Origin: Halorubellus sp. JP-L1
Lineage (GTDB): Archaea; Halobacteriota; Halobacteria; Halobacteriales; Natrialbaceae
Direction: 5' to 3'
DNA length: 64,000 nt
Assembly: GCF_011440375.1 (NCBI RefSeq)
Contig: NZ_JAAOIR010000004.1
Location: 248,001-312,000, forward strand
In this document: positions 245 to 63,069 of the stretch, piece after piece
Position numbering within the stretch: the first letter of the stretch is position 1
Layout: the number at the start of each line of letters is the position of its first letter
Position numbers and translations under genes: made by a program
Notes under the pieces: generated by a model
Seen by the model: only the letters and a program-made list of their open reading frames with translations
Told to the model about the DNA's origin: nothing
Databases searched by the model: none

Positions 245-937
245 CTAGTCGTCGATGAGGGCGCCGAGGAGTTTTCGTTCTGCGGCGTGGATGTGCTCGG
301 AGAACGTCGCCGAGGAGATGCCGAGGCGCTCGGCGACCGCCTTCCCGGTCGTCTGGCGCGGCCACTCGTAGTACCCCATCTCGAACGCGGTCCGAAGGAC
401 CTCTTGCTGGCGGTCCGTGAGGCACTCGTCGAGGAGTTCGTCGAGGACGGAGCGCGTGAAGATCGGCGTCACCGCGTCGGTCTCGCGCTTCGCGGTGAGG
501 TCCGCGGTCGGGTGCTCGCTCAGGAACCGCTCGACGACGTCCGCGGAATCGTACGCTGGAGGGATCTCGGCGAGGATGTGGCCTATGCCTTCGACGCCGC
601 GGACGTCCCGCGGGAGGGCGCCGTGTTCGGCGAGCGCCACTGCCGGACAGCCGGCGGAGACGACGAACTCGACGAGGCCGCCGTCGTCGTACTCGCGGAT
701 GAGCGAGGCATCCACGGAGTCCACGCTCTCGGCGGCGTCGAGGATGCGCTCCGGGTCGGTTCGCGTGACGTTGAAGTACTCCGAGTAGCTGTCGTCGGTA
801 CGCGGGACCATCTTCCCGAGTTCGAAGCGACAGTCCTCGGACTCGGAGAGCGCGACGAAGGGGTGCGGCGAGTCCCGGAACGCGAACTCGACCTCCGTCA
901 CCGTCCCGGAAGTTTGTCGTGAAGGGGACCTATCCAT
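245..937 (-). CDS. Bat-type HTH_10 transcriptional regulator
   Basis: The 230-residue protein ends in a typical bacterio-opsin-activator helix-turn-helix (HTH_10), about residues 172-226, with LTDRQQEVLRTAFEMGYYEW, then a TGKAVAERLGISSATFSEH turn and a final amphipathic helix. The N-terminal 165 residues resemble the ligand or signal domain that normally precedes HTH_10 in small Bat-like proteins. Such proteins are DNA-binding regulators whose signal is usually unknown. The ATG at 937 has an AT-rich stretch upstream (about 950-975) that could hold the promoter; a later GTG (codon 13) is possible. It follows the molybdate/tungstate permease on the same strand after 115 nt, but nothing links it to metal uptake. 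Confidence 0.85.
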   Translation of the reverse strand: MDRSPSRQTSGTVTEVEFAFRDSPHPFVALSESEDCRFELGKMVPRTDDSYSEYFNVTRTDPERILDAAESVDSVDASLIREYDDGGLVEFVVSAGCPAVALAEHGALPRDVRGVEGIGHILAEIPPAYDSADVVERFLSEHPTADLTAKRETDAVTPIFTRSVLDELLDECLTDRQQEVLRTAFEMGYYEWPRQTTGKAVAERLGISSATFSEHIHAAERKLLGALIDD

Positions 938-10863: not shown

Positions 10864-11418
10864 TCAGGCGTCGTCGGTGTCGGCGGCGTCGGCGGCGTCG
10901 GCGGCGTCGGCGGTGTCGGCGGCTGCGTCGGGTTCGTCTTCGGCTTCGAGCTCCGCTTCGTCCAGTAAGCCGTGGTACGAGCAGACGTACTCGTCGCGGA
11001 TGAGCTGTTCGTCGACGACGTCCAGTCCGAGCGCGTCGAGTGCCGCTCCGATCCGGTTGAGGTCGTCGTGGTCCTCGCCGATCGCGTTCACGTACACGTT
11101 GCGGTGGCCGGTCATGATCTCGCGGACCGCGGTCACGCCGTGAATTTCGCGGGCGCGGCTCGCGAGGTCGTCGCGCTCGGCTATCGGTGCCGTACAGATG
11201 ATCTTCGTGTAGAGGGGGTAGCCGGCGAGGTCGTAGTCGATGTCGACGTGGTAGCCGCGGATGATCCCGCTCGTCTCGAGTTTCTTCAGGCGCGTGCGGA
11301 CGGTGCTCGCCGAGATGTCGATCTTCTCCGCGATGTCGCCCGACGTCGTCCGCCGTGCGTCCTGCTGGAGGTAGTAGAGGATGCGTCGGTCGATCGAGTC
11401 CAGTTCGCCGTCTCTCAT
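10864..11418 (-). CDS. Lrp/AsnC family transcriptional regulator
   Basis: The 184-residue protein has an N-terminal winged helix (LDSIDRRILYYLQQDARRTT, then SASTVRTRLKKLETSGIIRG), followed by an RAM/AsnC ligand domain (about residues 60-150). Members are dimeric to octameric feast-famine regulators responding to amino acids. The C-terminus is an acidic tail with a small tandem repeat, AADAADAADT, encoded by repeated GGCGGCGTC triplets at about 10880-10920, probably variable by slippage. It is divergent from a gene pair encoding an amino-acid permease (start 11633), a sensible regulatory target, although no operator is evident. Confidence 0.9.
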   Translation of the reverse strand: MRDGELDSIDRRILYYLQQDARRTTSGDIAEKIDISASTVRTRLKKLETSGIIRGYHVDIDYDLAGYPLYTKIICTAPIAERDDLASRAREIHGVTAVREIMTGHRNVYVNAIGEDHDDLNRIGAALDALGLDVVDEQLIRDEYVCSYHGLLDEAELEAEDEPDAAADTADAADAADAADTDDA

Positions 11419-54084: not shown

Positions 54085-54489
54085 ATGACCATCGCTACTC
54101 TCAGGCTCCATCCGAGCACGACTCCCACGCTCCACGCGACCGACGGTGCGCACGCACGCCAGATCAGCGACGGACTCGGTGCGATCGCACTCCAGCTCGA
54201 GGAGTTCTCCGAACTCCAGTACGCGCTCCTCGGCGTCGAGGCCGTGACCGTCGTCCTCGGGCTCGTCATCGCGTACGTCGCCGTCCAGGGCTACAGGCGC
54301 AACGAGAGCCGCCCGATGCTGTTCGTCGCCACCGGGTTCGTCCTCCTCGTCGGCGTCCCCGCCGTCCTCGGCATCGGTTACCTCGCGAGTCTGCTCCCGC
54401 AGACGGTCGTCTCGATCGGGGGGACCGTGAGCGAGGTGCTCGCGATGGCGAGCATCCTCTACGGGCTCCGCGCTCCCGCGCGCGAGTGA
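54085..54489 (+). CDS. Small multi-helix membrane protein paired with the winged-helix regulator
   Basis: The 134-residue protein has a soluble N-terminal segment of about 35 residues, then three membrane segments (about 45-65, 76-98, 110-128): VEAVTVVLGLVIAYVAVQGY, PMLFVATGFVLLVGVPAVLG. The paralogue at 61064-61345 lacks the N-terminal extension but shares the helix pattern, including the GYRRN/AYRRT loop. Its ATG lies 1 nt after the regulator's stop. It may act as a membrane partner of the regulator. This is inferred from conserved pairing. Confidence 0.78.
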   Translation: MTIATLRLHPSTTPTLHATDGAHARQISDGLGAIALQLEEFSELQYALLGVEAVTVVLGLVIAYVAVQGYRRNESRPMLFVATGFVLLVGVPAVLGIGYLASLLPQTVVSIGGTVSEVLAMASILYGLRAPARE

Positions 54490-56251: not shown

Positions 56252-59200
56252 TCACTGCATCACCTCTGGCTCCGTCGACGAATCGAACAGCGACTCGAAC
56301 ACCTTCTGCTCGCCCTTCCTGAGGTGCTGGTGGAACGTCGGCGCGGCGACGTCCAGCGACGCGGCGACGTCCTCGCCGGTGGCGTCGCGCGGCCACTCGA
56401 AGTACCCGGAGTGGTACGCGGCCGCCAGCGCCGTCCGCTGTCTGTCCGTCAGTTCCGACAGCAGCGGCCCTCCGAGCCGCTGGATGTCCTCGCGCGACCG
56501 CTCGATGTGGGTCTGCCGGAGCATCGTCGCCGTCGGGTACTCCGCCTCGACGGCGTCGATCACCTCGCGGACGTCGACCGACGGCGCGAGGTGGATCGTC
56601 ATGTGGTAGTCACCGTCCTCGATGATCGCCGACTGTACGTACCCGCCGAGCGACGCCACGACGGACAGCACGGGCGGTTCCGTCAACGTCACCTCGAACC
56701 CGCGTGGGTCGCTATCTTCGTCGACAGAGAGGTCCCGCCAGTGCGGGAGGGCTTCGGTCAGTTCCGCGAGCGCACCGACCATGTCGGGCGTCACCGTCCC
56801 GAAGACGACGAACTCGTTATCGCCCGTCGGCACCGTGTGCTCGATCGCGATGCGACCGTCTCCATCCGCCGAGACGTCCATCGTCTCGAGGACGTCCCGC
56901 AACTGGAATTCGAGTTCGACGAGTTCGTCGCTCATCAGTGCACGCTTGCGTTCGGCGGCAGCGATGGCGTGCCCGACGATCTCCCCGAGACGGCCGAGTA
57001 CCTCGCGTTCCCGCTCGCCGAACGCGAACGCGCGGTCGCTGTAGACGCCTATGACGCCGTAGGTCATGTCGTCGTGGAAGATGGGGATGGCCGCCGCGGA
57101 TCGGAACCCGGCGTCTCTGCCCGCGTCCCGCCACGGCTCGTGGCGTGGGTCGTCGGTGATCTCCTGGGTCACCTGGACGTCGCCGGTCAGGAACGCACGG
57201 CCCATCGGTCCGTCGCTCCGTTCGTCGTCGGGGTCGACGCTCACCGTCAAGCCGTCCAGGTAGTCGCTGTCGGCCGACTGCGCGCGGACGTCGACGGTCT
57301 CGGACGCTGGGTTGGCGTCGCCGATCCACGCGAACGCGTACGAGTCCGTCGCGGCGAGGCGCTCGCAGACAGTGGTCTCGATCTCCTCGCGCGTCGACTG
57401 CTCGATGACGGCGCTCGTGACGTCCTCGACGACGCCGTGGAGCGTGTTCAGCGCCCCGAGTTCCTCGCGACGCCGGACGAGTTCGTCCTCGTGGGCCGCG
57501 CGGTCGATCGCGTTCGCGATGATGCTCGCGACCGACTGGAGGAACGTGACGTCGTGCCCGGCGAACTCGCGCTTCTCGGTGGCGTGCGCGCCGAGGACCC
57601 CCCAGGGATCGTTGCACGGCCCGATGACGGTGCTGATGCCGCTCTCGACGCCGTGATTCGTGAGTAGCTCCGGGCCGCTGATGGCGTCGTGCGCGTCCAG
57701 GTCCTCGACGACGACGGGTTGCTCGGTCGCGAGCGTGTGTGCGGCCTGGGACTCGTCCTCGACCGCGGACACCGACGCGTCGCCCACGAGTCCCTCGTCC
57801 CAGCCGACGCCCGAGCGGAGGGAGAGCGACCGCTGGTCCGGCGCGAGGTCCAGGACCTTGGAGTAGTCGACGCCGAGGACGTCCGCGACCAGCTCGGTTG
57901 CGTCCGCCAGCAGGTCGTCCACGTCGCCGTACTCGAGCGCCCGCTGGCCCAGTTCCGCGACCGCCGCCTGCTGGTGCATGCGCCATTCGAGCTCGCGCTC
58001 GCGCGCCTTCTGGCCGGTGACGTCCTGACTCATCGCCATGGCAGCGAAAGTCTCGCCGTCGTCGTCGCGCACCGGCACGAACTGGAACTGGTACGTTCGC
58101 CCGTCGACCGTCTCCTCGAAACTGGCGGGCTCCCCGTCCAGTGCGGCTTCGTAGCGCGGGACGACGACGTCCGCCACGGCCTCCGGGAGTGCCTCCTCGA
58201 TGAATCCGCCTATCAGTTCACTCCGCGGGACGTCGTAGTCGCCCTCCAGCGTCCCGCCGAAGGAGGCGTACCGCAGGTCCTCGTCGACGAGCGCGACGGC
58301 GCCGTTCGGGAAGTTCTCGATGAACGTCTGGTACTGCCGCCTGGACTCCTCGAGTTCGCGCTCGCGTCGCTTCCGTTCGGTGACGTCACGGACGACGCCG
58401 ATCCGCTCGTAGCCGTCGTCGGTGGGCAGCAGCGAGAACGTCGCCTCGCCCACCCACGTCTCCCCGTTCGGCGTCGTGAGCTCGCGCTCGAGCGTCGCCG
58501 TCGAGCGCTCGCCCGACCGGAGTTCGGACTCGAGCGCACTCGCGGCCTCGTAGGTCTCCTCGTCGACGACCGACGAGACGTGCGAGCCGACGATCGTTTC
58601 CTCCGAGTACCCCGTCATCGAGAGGTAGGCACCGTTCACGAGTGTGAACTCGCCGGCCTCGTCGACGGCGTAGATGCCGTCGTCGACTGTCTCGACGATC
58701 GACTTGTACCGTTCCAGATCTCGCTCGCGCTCCCTGCGCTCGGTGACGTCCCGGAAGTACACCGACAGTCCCGTCTCGGAGGGGTACGCGTTGACCTCGA
58801 ACCACGCCTCGAGCGGTTCGAAGTACTCCTCGAACGTCATCGACTCCTGGGTCTCGAACGCCCGATGGTACTCCTCGTAGAACGTCGAATCGATCGCCCC
58901 GGGGAACGCCTCCCAGAGCGTCTCCCCGACGAGACGCTCTCCCTCCCGCCCCAGGACGACCTTCGCCTGGTCGTTGACGTCGACGAACTCCCAGTCGTCG
59001 TCGACAGCGAAGAACGCGTCGTCGACCCGCCGGAACACGTCGTCGAGCTCCTCCTTGAGTTCCTCGCGTCGCCGGCGCAGTCGACGTTCCTTCGCTCGAC
59101 GCTCGCTAACGTCCCGTCCGATCCCCGTGAACCCGACGACCGATCCGTCCTCGTCCGTGAGTGGCGTCGCGGAGAACTCGTAGGGGATGGTCTCACCGTC

Positions 59201-60463
59201 CGCCGTCAGTAGCGGTGCCTCGAAGGTCACCGACTCGCCGTTCGCCACCAGTTCGATCGCGCTCGCGACCCGGTCGGCGTCCGCCTCGGGAACGAAGTCC
59301 GTCGGCGTCATCTCATCCATCTCCACGTCGGTGTAGCCAGTCACGTTCCGGAAGTGCTCGTTCCAGCGGAGAATTTCGCCGTCGTCGTCGAACGCGTAGA
59401 TGACGTCGCGCTGGTTCTCCAGGAGACTCTCGACGAACGACTTCTCCTCCTCGAGTTCGCGCTCGTACTCGCGGCGGTCAGTCATGTCGCGCGTGACCTT
59501 CGCGAACCCCTGGAGGTCGCCGTCGTCGTCCCGGATCGCCGTGATCGTGACGTTCGCCCAGAACCGAGAGCCGTCCGCGCGCACCCGCCAGCCCACGTCC
59601 TCGACGGACCCCTCCGCCTCCGCGGCCGCCAGGTTCGCTTCGGGAACGCCGGCCGCCCGGTCGACGTCGGTGTAGAACCGCGAGAAGTGCTGGCCAACGA
59701 TCTCCTCGGCGTCGAAGCCCTTGATGCGCTCTGCGCCCGGATTCCACGTTCGAACCGTCCCGTCGGTGTCGAGCGTGAAGATCGCGTACTCGTCGACCGC
59801 TTCCACGAGCGACTCGAACTCCCGGTGCGTCCGTTCCTCGCGCTTGCGTTCTGTGACGTCGTAGTAGAGTTCGACGCGGCCGCCAGCGTACTCGCCGGAC
59901 TCGATCGGCGTGCTTCGGTGTTCGAGCCAGCGTTCATCGCGGCCCTCGCCGGCGGTGACGTGACACTCGAACCGTTCGGGGGACATGTTGTCCTCGTAGC
60001 TCTCCAGAACGGTGTCGGTGAACGTCTCCGTGTCCTCGACGACCGACCCGATTCGTTCCTCGACGAGCCGCCGCTTGTCCCTGCCGAGGACCTCCTCCGG
60101 ATGCAGTCCGAAGTAGCGCTCGGTCGTCTCGTTCACCCAGGCGACGTCGAGCGCCTCGTCGAGCACGAAGATGCCGACCTCGACGTCGTTGAGGACGTCG
60201 TCGACGAGCGAGTTCGCGAGCCTCGCCCAGTCCGACGCTTCCGACTCCCCTCGCGTCGCCGGTCGCCACCAGACGCGCGCACTCGCACCGACCTTCTTCG
60301 TCTCGAGGCGCCCCTCCTCGACGAGCCGTTCCAGTCGCGCGTACACCGTCCGACGACCGAGGTCCATGCTTTCAGCGACCTCCGGCGTCGTCAACGGAAC
60401 CCCAGATTCCTCGAACGTCCGGAGCGTCTCCAGGAGGTCGATGGACAAGGATTGCCGTCCCAT
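56252..60463 (-). CDS. Multi-PAS/GAF sensor-regulator with HTH domains at both ends (Bat-like)
   Basis: The 1403-residue soluble protein starts with a winged-helix segment (residues about 5-65; PLTTPEVAESMDLGRRTVYA). Six PAS-like repeats follow at about 75-820, each with the ...FVLDEAL/..IFTLDTDG type start; several have a GF.G..RDVTER type PAC end. Two GAF domains cover about 830-1155, and a Bat-type signal domain and HTH_10 end the protein (ELTDRQRTALAAAYHSGYFE, ASLDVAAPTFHQHLRKGEQK). It is a single-chain sensor and DNA-binding regulator. There is no histidine kinase domain. A TATA box lies at about -29; the 105-residue winged-helix gene is divergent. Confidence 0.9.
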   Translation of the reverse strand: MGRQSLSIDLLETLRTFEESGVPLTTPEVAESMDLGRRTVYARLERLVEEGRLETKKVGASARVWWRPATRGESEASDWARLANSLVDDVLNDVEVGIFVLDEALDVAWVNETTERYFGLHPEEVLGRDKRRLVEERIGSVVEDTETFTDTVLESYEDNMSPERFECHVTAGEGRDERWLEHRSTPIESGEYAGGRVELYYDVTERKREERTHREFESLVEAVDEYAIFTLDTDGTVRTWNPGAERIKGFDAEEIVGQHFSRFYTDVDRAAGVPEANLAAAEAEGSVEDVGWRVRADGSRFWANVTITAIRDDDGDLQGFAKVTRDMTDRREYERELEEEKSFVESLLENQRDVIYAFDDDGEILRWNEHFRNVTGYTDVEMDEMTPTDFVPEADADRVASAIELVANGESVTFEAPLLTADGETIPYEFSATPLTDEDGSVVGFTGIGRDVSERRAKERRLRRRREELKEELDDVFRRVDDAFFAVDDDWEFVDVNDQAKVVLGREGERLVGETLWEAFPGAIDSTFYEEYHRAFETQESMTFEEYFEPLEAWFEVNAYPSETGLSVYFRDVTERRERERDLERYKSIVETVDDGIYAVDEAGEFTLVNGAYLSMTGYSEETIVGSHVSSVVDEETYEAASALESELRSGERSTATLERELTTPNGETWVGEATFSLLPTDDGYERIGVVRDVTERKRRERELEESRRQYQTFIENFPNGAVALVDEDLRYASFGGTLEGDYDVPRSELIGGFIEEALPEAVADVVVPRYEAALDGEPASFEETVDGRTYQFQFVPVRDDDGETFAAMAMSQDVTGQKARERELEWRMHQQAAVAELGQRALEYGDVDDLLADATELVADVLGVDYSKVLDLAPDQRSLSLRSGVGWDEGLVGDASVSAVEDESQAAHTLATEQPVVVEDLDAHDAISGPELLTNHGVESGISTVIGPCNDPWGVLGAHATEKREFAGHDVTFLQSVASIIANAIDRAAHEDELVRRREELGALNTLHGVVEDVTSAVIEQSTREEIETTVCERLAATDSYAFAWIGDANPASETVDVRAQSADSDYLDGLTVSVDPDDERSDGPMGRAFLTGDVQVTQEITDDPRHEPWRDAGRDAGFRSAAAIPIFHDDMTYGVIGVYSDRAFAFGEREREVLGRLGEIVGHAIAAAERKRALMSDELVELEFQLRDVLETMDVSADGDGRIAIEHTVPTGDNEFVVFGTVTPDMVGALAELTEALPHWRDLSVDEDSDPRGFEVTLTEPPVLSVVASLGGYVQSAIIEDGDYHMTIHLAPSVDVREVIDAVEAEYPTATMLRQTHIERSREDIQRLGGPLLSELTDRQRTALAAAYHSGYFEWPRDATGEDVAASLDVAAPTFHQHLRKGEQKVFESLFDSSTEPEVMQ

Positions 60464-60485: not shown

Positions 60486-60499
60486 CGTATTAAATTTCC
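60486..60499 (-). promoter_or_regulatory. TATA box of the PAS/GAF regulator gene
   Basis: On the minus strand GGAAATTTAATACG is centred about 29 nt before the ATG at 60463, so the transcript should be leaderless. A 6-bp inverted repeat ATTGCT-GTT-AGCAAT (60522-60536) lies just upstream and could be an operator in the 220-nt gap before the divergent gene. Confidence 0.5.
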
Positions 60500-60683
60500 G
60501 TCGATGGAACCAACCCACCATATTGCTGTTAGCAATCGCAACTAACTACCACTACTCGCGAGAGTCGAAACGGTCGGCGTTCGGTTCGAGTCCTCTGAAG
60601 ACTATCGACTAGATTCGAACCTATACAGTTACAGTCGAGGCTTACAGTGGGAGCGAGCGTAGTAATCTCCACCTTCCGACACT

Positions 60684-61001
60684 ATGCAAACGCCATCAGC
60701 CGAGCACCCCACGAAACCGGCAGCAGTCGTGGAGACAGAACGGGACGAGGACGACGACGTCGTCTCGACGCGACGCCAAACGATTCTCGGCCTCTTGACC
60801 GCGTACGACGGTCCCGTCCACCTGGACACGCTCGCGACGGACCTGGCGGCCAACGAAGAGTTCGTCGACGACGACACCACCGACGAACGCGTACACACCC
60901 TACGGATCACCCTCCACCACCGGCACCTTCCCAAGATGGACGACCGTGGCATCCTCGATTACCATCCCGACTCGCATCGCGTCGAACTAGACGCCAGGTG
61001 A
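60684..61001 (+). CDS. Small winged-helix-like haloarchaeal protein
   Basis: The 105-residue protein has a middle segment QTILGLLTAYDGPVHLDTLA (about 32-51) with TLRITLHHRHLPKMDDRGIL (about 72-91), the helix-helix-wing order of small haloarchaeal winged-helix proteins (DUF7344-like). It has an acidic N-terminus. It could repress or tune the divergent PAS/GAF regulator, or other genes. No membrane partner follows. Its ATG is 220 nt from that of the regulator. Confidence 0.75.
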   Translation: MQTPSAEHPTKPAAVVETERDEDDDVVSTRRQTILGLLTAYDGPVHLDTLATDLAANEEFVDDDTTDERVHTLRITLHHRHLPKMDDRGILDYHPDSHRVELDAR

Positions 61002-61063: not shown

Positions 61064-61345
61064 TCACTCAGTGTACAGCGAGTACGTGATGATGGCGAAC
61101 CCGACCGCCGTCAGTCCCGACTCGATGACGAGCGCCGTGCCGCGACCGACGTTCGTCAGGAACTGATCGAACACGCCCGCGACGAGCGAGCCGAGCGTGA
61201 TCACCCCGAACCCGACCGCGAGATACCAGAGCGGGCCCGCGCCGGTCCGCCGGTACGCGCGATACGAGAGATACGAGATGAGGCCGCCGAGCGCCAGCGT
61301 GATTGCTTTCAATGCCACGACGAGTGCCGGTGTGTGACTGCTCAT
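61064..61345 (-). CDS. Small membrane protein, second paralogous regulator/membrane pair
   Basis: The 93-residue protein has three membrane segments (about 8-27, 37-60, 70-90): LVVALKAITLALGGLISYLS, LWYLAVGFGVITLGSLVAGV. The AYRRTGAG loop corresponds to GYRRNESR in the paralogue at 54085-54489. Its ATG overlaps the stop of the winged-helix gene by 4 nt (ATGA), so the proteins are coupled in translation. It presumably serves as the membrane partner in the same type of module. Confidence 0.8.
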   Translation of the reverse strand: MSSHTPALVVALKAITLALGGLISYLSYRAYRRTGAGPLWYLAVGFGVITLGSLVAGVFDQFLTNVGRGTALVIESGLTAVGFAIITYSLYTE

Positions 61346-61719
61346 GTTTCCTTGCGAACCTCGTTCCAGAGTCGTGCGAGTTGTTCGTCCGCCGACCCCG
61401 CGGGCCTCGAGATGGAGACCTCGAAGTCGCGGTCCTCGTTCAGCCCGATCTCGACGGCGTCGAACGCGAGCACGTACTTCGTGGTGTGATGGCCGTCGGA
61501 CCTGATCTCGGTGCGTTCGTTCAGGATCGACGCCTCCGTCAGCAGGTCGAGCTTCCGGTACGTCGTCGAGAGCGGGATGTCGGTCGCGTCCGAGACCTCG
61601 TTCGCCGTCATCGCACCCTCCATCTCCTGGACGATCGTCCGACAGCTCGGATCGTCGAGTGCGTCCAGGACGGACTGGAGGTCCGGCTCTCCCTCGTCCG
61701 CGAACGGGTCCCGCACCAT
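61342..61719 (-). CDS. Small winged-helix regulator, second paralogous pair
   Basis: The 125-residue protein has an ArsR-like winged helix (about residues 15-75; LDDPSCRTIVQEMEGAMTAN, then STTYRKLDLLTEASILNERT) and the motif DGHHTTKYVLA (about 80), the same as in the 53715-54083 protein, then strands and a short C-terminal helix. Its divergent neighbour encodes the multicopper oxidase (ATG 61924, 204 nt away), so it may control the copper locus. The stop overlaps the membrane-protein start by 4 nt. Confidence 0.84.
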   Translation of the reverse strand: MVRDPFADEGEPDLQSVLDALDDPSCRTIVQEMEGAMTANEVSDATDIPLSTTYRKLDLLTEASILNERTEIRSDGHHTTKYVLAFDAVEIGLNEDRDFEVSISRPAGSADEQLARLWNEVRKET

Positions 61720-61923
61720 CTACGCGTGACTCCACGGCGACCCATCAAAAACCTGCCGGCACCGACGTAGCGGCCCCGTCTGCCGGTTTCGAGCGGCGAA
61801 CCACTCCCGATAAGGACGGGGTCGAACATCTCCGGGTGCGTTCCAGAACTCTGAGAACGGTTATTCGCCGCCGAGAATCACCGACGCCCCGTTCAACTAC
61901 CCCCCACTACGTGGAGGTGTACG

Positions 61924-63069
61924 ATGACCGACCGCATCGGCGCTCCCGGAACTGGCGTATCGCGACGCGAATTCGTTGCAGCAACCGGCGGCATGGGGGC
62001 CGCCGCACTCGCGGGCTGTACGGCCGCGTTCGAGGCCGAAGACCCGACGACGACCACGGAGAACACCGGATCCCGGACTCCCGACCTCCCCGAGACCAGT
62101 CCGCCCCAGGTCGTCAACGTCGACGAACAGGGCGGCCAGGTGACGATGAAGACCCAGCCCGCGCGACACAGGCCGCACCCGCTCGAAACGATGGGTGGGC
62201 CCGTGGAACTCCCGCAGGTGTGGGCGTTCCAGGCCGACGACCGCGACCCCTCCGTCCCCGGTCCGATCCTGCGGACGACCGAGGGCGAGGACATGGAGGT
62301 GACGCTCGACAACACTGACGGCGGCCGCCCGCACACCATCCACTTCCACGGCGTCTCGAAGAAGTGGGAGGACGACGGCGTCCCGACGACCACGGGCATC
62401 CGCGTCGATCCCGGCGAGAAGCACACGTACCAGATCCCCGCGAACACGCCCGGCACGCACCTCTATCACTGCCACTACCAGACCCAGCGTCACATCGAGA
62501 TGGGGATGTACGGAATCTTCCGCGTCGACCCGAAGGGCTACGAGCCCGCTGACACGGAAGCGTTCCTGACGTTCAAGGAGACCGACTCGCGGCTCTCACG
62601 GCAGATGGCCGGCGAGGACGTCCAGTACGACCCGCGGAACCGCCGCCCGGACGTCTTCACGGTCAACGGGAAGAGCGCGCCGCGGTCGTTCCACCCCGAG
62701 GACGGCAGCCCCGTGATCGTCGACCAGGGCGACACCGTCCGCCTCCACCTCGCCAACAACGGCTACATGAGTCACCCGATGCACGTCCACAACCACCGCT
62801 TCCGGCGCGTGGAGAAGGACGGCGGCGCGATCCCCGAGGCCGCCCAGCACGAGATGGACGTCGTGAACCTCGCACCCGCCGAACGGCACACGATCGAGTT
62901 CGAGGCCGACGCCGACCCCGGCATCTACCTCATGCACTGTCACAAGGTCAACCACGTGATGAACGGGAACTTCTACCCCGGCGGCATGCTCGCACCCATC
63001 GTCTACAAGGACGCGATGGACTCGGACATCTTCAGCCAGCTCATGGAGTACGCGGGCTACGAGGGCTGA
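61924..63069 (+). CDS. Two-domain multicopper oxidase, Tat-exported lipoprotein
   Basis: The 381-residue protein begins with a Tat signal (SRREFVAATGGMGAAALAGC) with lipobox. It contains two cupredoxin domains with copper-binding motifs: HTIHFHG and THLYHCHYQTQRHIEMGM in the first, HPMHVHNHRF and YLMHCHKVNHVMNGNF in the second. Both domains contain an HCH...H...M-type T1 motif, suggesting the type with mononuclear copper in both domains. Such two-domain oxidases form trimers and oxidise phenols, metal ions, or act like nitrite reductase. A GGAGGTG Shine-Dalgarno-like sequence precedes the ATG. Confidence 0.9.
   Translation: MTDRIGAPGTGVSRREFVAATGGMGAAALAGCTAAFEAEDPTTTTENTGSRTPDLPETSPPQVVNVDEQGGQVTMKTQPARHRPHPLETMGGPVELPQVWAFQADDRDPSVPGPILRTTEGEDMEVTLDNTDGGRPHTIHFHGVSKKWEDDGVPTTTGIRVDPGEKHTYQIPANTPGTHLYHCHYQTQRHIEMGMYGIFRVDPKGYEPADTEAFLTFKETDSRLSRQMAGEDVQYDPRNRRPDVFTVNGKSAPRSFHPEDGSPVIVDQGDTVRLHLANNGYMSHPMHVHNHRFRRVEKDGGAIPEAAQHEMDVVNLAPAERHTIEFEADADPGIYLMHCHKVNHVMNGNFYPGGMLAPIVYKDAMDSDIFSQLMEYAGYEG

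Follow-up and report, generated by a model that had tools for sequence, protein, structure and literature searches.

Which DNA would a Bat-type sensor-regulator read if it carried a DNA-binding domain at each of its two ends? The question is raised by a gene in a 64,000-nucleotide stretch of the Halorubellus sp. JP-L1 genome (henceforth the window, meaning the whole stretch analysed), whose product couples an N-terminal winged helix-turn-helix (wHTH) to six PAS domains, two GAF domains, a BAT domain and a C-terminal HTH_10, and which stands back to back with a small gene of the DUF7344 family. Comparing this locus with its haloarchaeal relatives, we consider it fairly probable that the winged helix reads the promoter of its own gene and that the HTH_10 reads that of the DUF7344 gene, perhaps in one complex.

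The two-ended protein and its divergent partner

The two genes and the domains of the sensor-regulator lie in the window as follows:

56252..60463, minus strand: sensor-regulator gene, wHTH - PASx6 - GAFx2 - BAT - HTH_10; 1403 aa, with its ATG at 60463 and its stop ending at 56252
60260..60463, minus strand: N-terminal winged helix, aa 1-68, with recognition helix 37-49 and wing 54-66 (structure model, family alignment, covariation)
57983..60205, minus strand: six PAS domains, aa about 87-827 (six stretches each of PAS_4 and TIGR00229; outer limits approximate)
57500..57925, minus strand: GAF 1, aa 847-988 (Pfam)
56963..57397, minus strand: GAF 2, aa 1023-1167 (Pfam)
56477..56929, minus strand: BAT domain, aa 1179-1329 (Pfam)
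56294..56452, minus strand: C-terminal HTH_10, aa 1338-1390 (Pfam)
60684..61001, plus strand: divergent DUF7344 gene, 105 aa, predicted winged-helix-like (PF24035 profile, structure model)

Pfam finds all of the six PAS, two GAF and C-terminal HTH_10 domains that a first-pass annotation of this DNA had claimed, the HTH_10 (74.5 bits against a cut-off of 23.1) being preceded by the BAT domain (128.8 bits against 25.8). The lack of a kinase domain, likewise claimed, agrees with the absence of HisKA, HATPase and HATPase_c from the best 25 of the 28 Pfam families matched and from the 15 at E ≤ 0.001; a REC domain is also missing from those best 25 of 28, and a winged helix stands at the N-terminus instead.

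A domain search, the check that the annotation had proposed for this winged helix, succeeded in the relatives but left the window segment itself below the Pfam cut-off. Scanned alone, the first ~68 residues fall under every such cut-off (best HTH_30 at E 4e-4 and HTH_20 at E 6e-4, the latter with 20.2 bits against a cut-off of 27); HTH_20 is matched at E ≤ 1e-3 in 30 of 41 family members, with a best E of 6e-11, the window protein not being among the 30. An AlphaFold2 (AF2) model from 41 sequences gives helices at residues 8-15, 26-33 and 37-49 and strands at 54-58 and 62-66, with a predicted local distance difference test score (pLDDT) of 92-93 per 10-residue block over residues 21-60; these three helices and the wing of two strands make up the alpha1-alpha2-alpha3-wing fold. 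Winged helices form the majority of the top Foldseek matches of this model, among which the best E is 2e-3 and no match has E ≤ 1e-3, and VIA-align gives Z 9-10 against CadC, Z-alpha, TFE-alpha and MarR/ArsR chains. As modelled, residues 1 to ~68 form a winged helix, several wing residues of which are nearly invariant across the family alignment. The annotation's claim that a winged helix opens the protein, for which it had made a structural model decisive, is borne out by the AF2 fold, in which the winged helix does appear, and by the VIA-align scores.

The annotation had further implied that such a two-ended protein is rare, a point that does not survive the look among relatives that it recommended. 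Among 41 long winged-helix proteins (the window protein and 40 chosen by hand from the listed matches, from which 60 further loci were likewise chosen), 35 end in BAT and HTH_10 and six in HisKA and HATPase. The best 80 of 226 relatives (named loci on GTDB contigs, sorted by our own profiles) comprise 58 of the HTH_10 type, 13 of the kinase type and nine of neither, at least one of these nine being cut by a contig end. The class counts given below come from 175 distinct winged-helix genes, namely 118 of the HTH_10 type, 26 of the kinase type and 31 others; this set was deduplicated and an earlier locus set was not, gene calls within loci followed our own codon-composition rule, and one start codon was taken per gene, wrong starts reducing the site counts. 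On the genome level, a winged-helix match at E ≤ 1e-3, short stand-alone proteins counted, occurs in at least 177 of the 194 genomes of the class, such tallies being lower bounds with at most 27 candidates scored in most genomes at first look; the source genome has 36 HTH_10 matches, three of them in winged-helix proteins. By these sequence comparisons, the two-ended proteins are an established and common type among haloarchaea.

The small winged-helix gene that the annotation had noticed divergent from the sensor proves to be the DUF7344 gene, with a PF24035 score of 57.4 bits (cut-off 27.8). Its model (helices 20-40, 47-57 and a long third at 66-87, strands 91-94 and 99-102) appears winged-helix-like, and Foldseek returned zero matches to it at or below E 1e-3. 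Of the 118 HTH_10-type genes, 81 have a divergent DUF7344 gene upstream (one of the 118 having no room for it), as do none of the 26 kinase-type genes and 12 of the 31 others, five of these 12 being short winged-helix proteins; in the source genome such a partner accompanies each of the three winged-helix HTH_10 genes. The name DUF7344 was not found in the literature searched, which lacked most subscription papers.

The palindrome before the sensor gene

The relatives share a 14-bp palindrome, YTCCRYCGRCGGAR, beside the TATA-like box of the sensor gene, represented in the window by the following features:

60496..60509, either strand: palindrome TTCCATCGACGGAA (as read on the minus strand), proposed operator of the N-terminal winged helix, 32 bp before the ATG
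60488..60495, minus strand: TATA-like ATTTAATA, directly downstream of the palindrome (sequence)

In a first set of 78 DUF7344-paired loci, 68 have the palindrome within 400 nt without a mismatch at its eight fixed positions, as do 27 of 2141 random 400-nt stretches; allowing at most one mismatch it is found in 77 loci, in 75 of which it lies 29-35 bp from the start codon. Under the looser definition used for the 175 distinct genes, with the site at 24-46 bp from the start and positions 1 and 4 limited to C or T, it is present in 128: 76 of the 81 HTH_10-type genes with a divergent DUF7344 and 25 of the 37 without, 13 of the 26 kinases, 7/7 and 1/2 of the long others with and without DUF7344, and 3/5 and 3/17 of the short winged helices with and without it. 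By the same count, just seven of 587 other genes in these loci have the palindrome. None was found before 16 BAT genes of the source genome that lack a winged helix (those of 18 whose start falls inside the stretch examined), every candidate start being tried. The 13 kinases with the palindrome have neither an HTH_10 nor a divergent DUF7344; since kinases and Bat-like proteins share the winged helix and not the HTH_10, their common palindrome points to the winged helix.

The residues of the winged helix add a second line of evidence. Bases of the palindrome covary with residues 37, 39 and 42 of the recognition helix and 61 of the wing, and it is through recognition helix and wing that a winged helix is expected to read DNA. 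Over the 128 genes, half-site position 4 pairs strongly with R37, and position 1 with T39 and A42, among others. Within the 101 HTH_10-type genes, the excess mutual information (MI) reaches 0.44 for S61 with position 6, 0.36 for A42 and T39 with position 1 and 0.24 for R37 with position 4, and never exceeds 0.19 between the palindrome and the 210 BAT-HTH_10 columns; T39 (21.3) and S61 (15.4) also top the z-scores, which here and below are inflated by relatedness among the genes. Translated into bases, R37 goes with C at position 4 of both halves in 88 of 88 genes, and where residue 37 is not R, one or both halves have T in 10 of 13; T39 goes with T at position 1 of both halves in 21 of 22, and S39 with a C there in one or both halves in 68 of 74; C at position 6 of both halves accompanies S61 in 34 of 46 genes and N61 in 0 of 38, and R61 has T in both in 12 of 13. 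Close S39/T39 pairs, matched greedily by identity and not on a tree, agree in 19 cases, tie in three and oppose in none.

Several observations weigh against this assignment. The palindrome is missing from half of the kinases and from 16 of 22 short winged helices. The top z of the 128 genes (23.2) belongs to a residue that is not in the recognition helix, T13, paired with position 4, and in the 101 genes the HTH_10 columns W179 (z 14.7) and A189 (11.2) outrank R37 (9.4) at that same position. Further, with positions 1 and 4 restricted by definition to C or T, the residue tables contrast those two only. Once the tree is considered, independent pairs become scarce and none is significant: a mean of 4.8 same and 0 opposite of 7 for S61/N61 (median p 0.06), 2.7 same and 0 opposite of 4 for residue 39, and 0.9 same and 0 opposite of 2 for residue 37. 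Taking both sides together, we hold that the N-terminal winged helix very probably binds the palindrome.

Two further observations concern this promoter class. The kinase-type loci (L050, L111, L116, L135, L185, L186 and others), with their N-terminal winged helix and, in 13 of the 26, a palindrome ahead of the start, are candidate self-regulating DNA-binding kinases. A GTACGTACC-like stretch near the palindrome was considered and dropped, as TACGTACC with at most one mismatch occurs in 15 of 67 regions and TACGTACCA in 7 of 67.

The second element and the distance between the sites

On the DUF7344 side of the intergenic region we found a different element:

60619..60634, plus strand: upstream element ACCTATACAGTTACAG of the DUF7344 gene, proposed HTH_10 site (family consensus ACCTAATCANTTCTAG), 109 bp from the palindrome
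60641..60645, plus strand: CTTAC, conserved TATA-like position of the DUF7344 promoter (motif fit, sequence)

The motif on the DUF7344 strand takes the form ACCTAATCANTTCTAG-N6-CTTAC; its best score averages 25.2 bits over 67 non-redundant regions, and 7.7-8.8 bits when three shuffled sets are fitted in the same way. Scored in the 200 nt upstream of each palindrome, with the 99th percentile of 174 background windows as threshold, it is present in 75 of the 81 HTH_10-type genes with DUF7344, a circular count in that the position weight matrix was trained on this class, and in 7/7 long others with DUF7344, mostly training members too. It appears in one of the 26 kinases and none of the five short winged helices with DUF7344; without DUF7344 it is found in 3/17 short and 1/2 long others. 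As the element is nearly absent from genes without an HTH_10, and is brought neither by a winged helix alone nor by DUF7344 next to a stand-alone one, an HTH_10 looks needed for it, if not sufficient.

Apart from the circularity, three results speak against the HTH_10 as its reader: the element is absent from 27 of 36 HTH_10-type genes without DUF7344 (present in 9/36); HTH_10-element covariation is weak, with an excess MI of 0.35 over the 210 columns and, for comparison, 0.22 with the winged helix; and two of the four DUF7344 genes near HTH_10 genes elsewhere in the source genome (C1:1310020 and C1:1286718) lack the element. A search of that genome for further targets of the element, with at most three mismatches, gave seven matches against 10 in a reversed control, and so carries no information on targets. 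On balance, the class distribution makes it probable that the HTH_10 binds the second element. L220, L237, L238, L239 and L240, winged-helix proteins of ~80 aa with a divergent DUF7344, are without the second element, and some of them carry a variant palindrome such as TTCTTTTGAAAGAA.

The distance between the two elements was measured in 54 of 70 regions, after removal of near-duplicates and of regions whose element scored no more than 12 (the 70 are 75 minus those shorter than 120 bp or without a palindrome). From the palindrome edge to the first C of CCTAA, it spans 68-120 bp, with 108-109 bp in 22 regions and 106-110 in 28, the 26 beyond that range counting against the reading proposed below; the window has 110 to that C and 109 to the A. 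The 22 spacers at 108-109 bp show a mean identity of 27.1%, against 25.3% when shuffled, with more than 45% in one of 231 pairs, and the proteins concerned range from 771 to 1463 aa. Hence, the length of the spacer is kept and its sequence is not, which fits selection on geometry, with a single complex on both sites as the simplest cause. Helical phasing (Rayleigh R 0.51 at 10 bp) is mostly driven by the 108-109 mode and is thus just suggestive beyond it.

The paired sites can also be recovered from DNA alone. A composite pattern (TAGG, 98-116 bases, palindrome, 29-37 bases, ATG), run over 391 genomes, some used earlier and others not, found 41 places in 38 genomes, against five for the reversed pattern; of 30 places inspected, 29 show a winged-helix open reading frame (ORF) that starts at an ATG belonging to the pattern, and DUF7344 is divergently placed in 28. 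The pattern is strict, and so tells little about the number of cassettes missed. One of its places, L308 (G056:C1:1227288), has the composite operator before an ORF that starts like the family (MTAATLTEALR) and then departs from it, perhaps a broken copy. The first-pass suggestion that the protein could bridge two DNA sites now has indirect support, in the form of two different conserved sites in one intergenic region with an often-held spacer length; the bridging itself is something that we only infer from that arrangement.

A proposed switch, its rivals and its known relatives

We propose a one-component sensor-regulator of the Bat type in which each end would read a DNA site of its own. At the N-terminus, the winged helix, probably as a dimer, would read YTCCRYCGRCGGAR by its own TATA-like box and thereby control its own synthesis, whereas the C-terminal HTH_10 would activate the divergent DUF7344 promoter from ACCTAATCANTTCTAG, which adjoins the poor TATA-like CTTAC. 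Input through the PAS and GAF domains would shift the balance between the two promoters, with DUF7344, a small winged-helix-like protein, as the output relay. Because the palindrome lies over the expected B recognition element, repression is the likelier sign, and we lean towards autorepression rather than autoactivation. The often-held spacer length might then reflect occupation of both sites in one complex; that both ends are bound to both sites at once is possible, at rather less than an even chance. In its fullest form the proposal, which we put forward tentatively, is of a single-polypeptide DNA-looping switch: two unlike readers would bridge divergent promoters ~110 bp, or some ten helical turns, apart, so that one signal-dependent complex sets both repression of the sensor's own gene and activation of DUF7344, in a cassette spread across the haloarchaea, while in a kinase branch the same N-terminal domain would make for a self-regulating DNA-binding histidine kinase.

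It is quite conceivable, if short of probable, that the spacing instead stems from common ancestry and from two promoters being packed back to back, without any protein bridge. Each promoter needs a fixed distance to its own start, and the 106-110 class is clustered on a tree of 55 BAT-HTH_10 sequences, with 10 changes against 18.6 when shuffled. Yet that class is present in many branches of the tree, its equal-length spacers are unalignable and the proteins at 108-109 bp differ widely in length, as noted above; two independent promoters should also need no agreement to a base or two.

Rather unlikely, in our estimate, is an arrangement in which the winged helix reads the palindrome and another protein reads the DUF7344 element, be it DUF7344 itself or another Bat paralogue, so that there is no bridge. 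The 36 HTH_10 matches in the source genome offer candidates, DUF7344 is itself winged-helix-like, and both the weak HTH_10-element covariation and the 27 HTH_10-type genes lacking the element could be so explained. All five loci that pair DUF7344 with a stand-alone winged helix lack the element, which argues the other way, as does its retention in HTH_10-type loci without a DUF7344 match (L092, L084, L144, L121 and L125; in L144 and L121 at 88 bp, beside divergent ORFs that are not DUF7344 by profile). Likewise, of the 19 other DUF7344 upstream stretches in the source genome, just two exceed background, with 7.4 and 14.5 bits, and each has an HTH_10 gene nearby.

Very improbably, the palindrome could be an element of promoters in general, or be bound by some unrelated global regulator. 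It does abut a TATA-like box, and its 12-bp core has 18 matches in the source genome, two of them at winged-helix promoters (the palindrome of the third winged-helix gene has a mismatch); but of the other 16, 12 fall inside predicted ORFs and four are intergenic, on which ground we rejected a large palindrome regulon, and a general element would explain neither the covariation with recognition helix and wing nor the near-absence from other genes. One intergenic core, at G000:C1:130077-130088, marks a possible extra target, a 487-aa ORF that starts 38 bp further on and does not belong to the family. Least credible is a winged helix that has lost DNA binding and serves dimerisation or protein contact, as winged helices can and as several nearly invariant wing residues might allow, given the base-residue covariation in its recognition helix and wing.

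Among known proteins, Bat of Halobacteria comes closest. Bat has a PAS/GAF sensory part, BAT and a C-terminal HTH_10 (PMC5847659, PMC1447603), together with a divergent N-terminal REC domain that other domains replace in some members (PMC5847659), and a bop promoter has an upstream activating sequence (UAS) 5' of bop and a sequence that deviates from the archaeal consensus (PMC1447603). The window protein resembles Bat in its PAS/GAF, BAT and C-terminal HTH_10 domains and in the kinase domain not seen, and differs in having a winged helix where Bat has REC, along with the palindrome and the divergent DUF7344 partner. The UAS consensus of the Halobacterium bop promoter, associated with Baliga and DasSarma, is reportedly ACCcnactagTTnGG; in that form it looks related to ACCTAATCANTTCTAG, sharing ACC and TT with it at the same offsets, both lying just upstream of a poor TATA box, and differs from it at the remaining positions.

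The winged helix itself shares its fold with ArsR/MarR-like proteins (HTH_20, with the sequence match in 30 of the 41 family members), from which the window member differs in staying below the Pfam cut-off and in its fusion to a sensor and a second DNA-binding domain. Haloarchaeal PAS/GAF histidine kinases are alike in that the kinase module ends six of the 41 long proteins and 13 of the best 80 of 226, and in having the same kind of palindrome in half of the 26; they differ in lacking an HTH_10 and a divergent DUF7344, with the second element in one of 26. The archaeal wHTH-REC and HTH-REC response regulators LtrR and FilR1, as described in PMC5847659, likewise have an N-terminal HTH followed by a signalling domain, but one DNA-binding domain and a phospho-receiver input. 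The extra N-terminal reader and the paired-site cassette are additions to the known Bat/BAT-HTH_10 kind; of the two-ended architecture or the paired sites, we found nothing in the literature searched, which included passages of PMC5847659, PMC7824242, PMC1447603, PMC3184054 and PMC10062603 and lacked most subscription papers.

The remaining observations concern the surroundings in the window. Genes for DUF7521-like membrane proteins flank the cassette at 54085-54486 and 61064-61735, the right-hand likeness being judged by eye; the right-hand one overlaps or follows an HTH_20 gene at 61345-61719. Beside the cassette, 61924-63066 (plus strand) encodes a multicopper-oxidase-like protein, judged by eye from the translation. 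At the left end of the window, 266-904 (minus strand) encodes a short BAT-HTH_10 protein (240-aa frame), and 11275-11358 (minus strand) holds an HTH_10 fragment covering 28 of 53 positions (22.5 bits, or 23.1 with neighbours in frame).

To our knowledge, targets are known for few Bat-like regulators, numerous as these are in haloarchaea, with 36 HTH_10 matches in the source genome alone. In this case the sequence itself supplies a predicted operator and target gene, at base resolution and with residue-to-base predictions for R37, T39 and S61, so that the DNA targets of such proteins become directly testable. If the bridge is real, a single protein with two unlike DNA-binding domains would be looping DNA in an archaeon.

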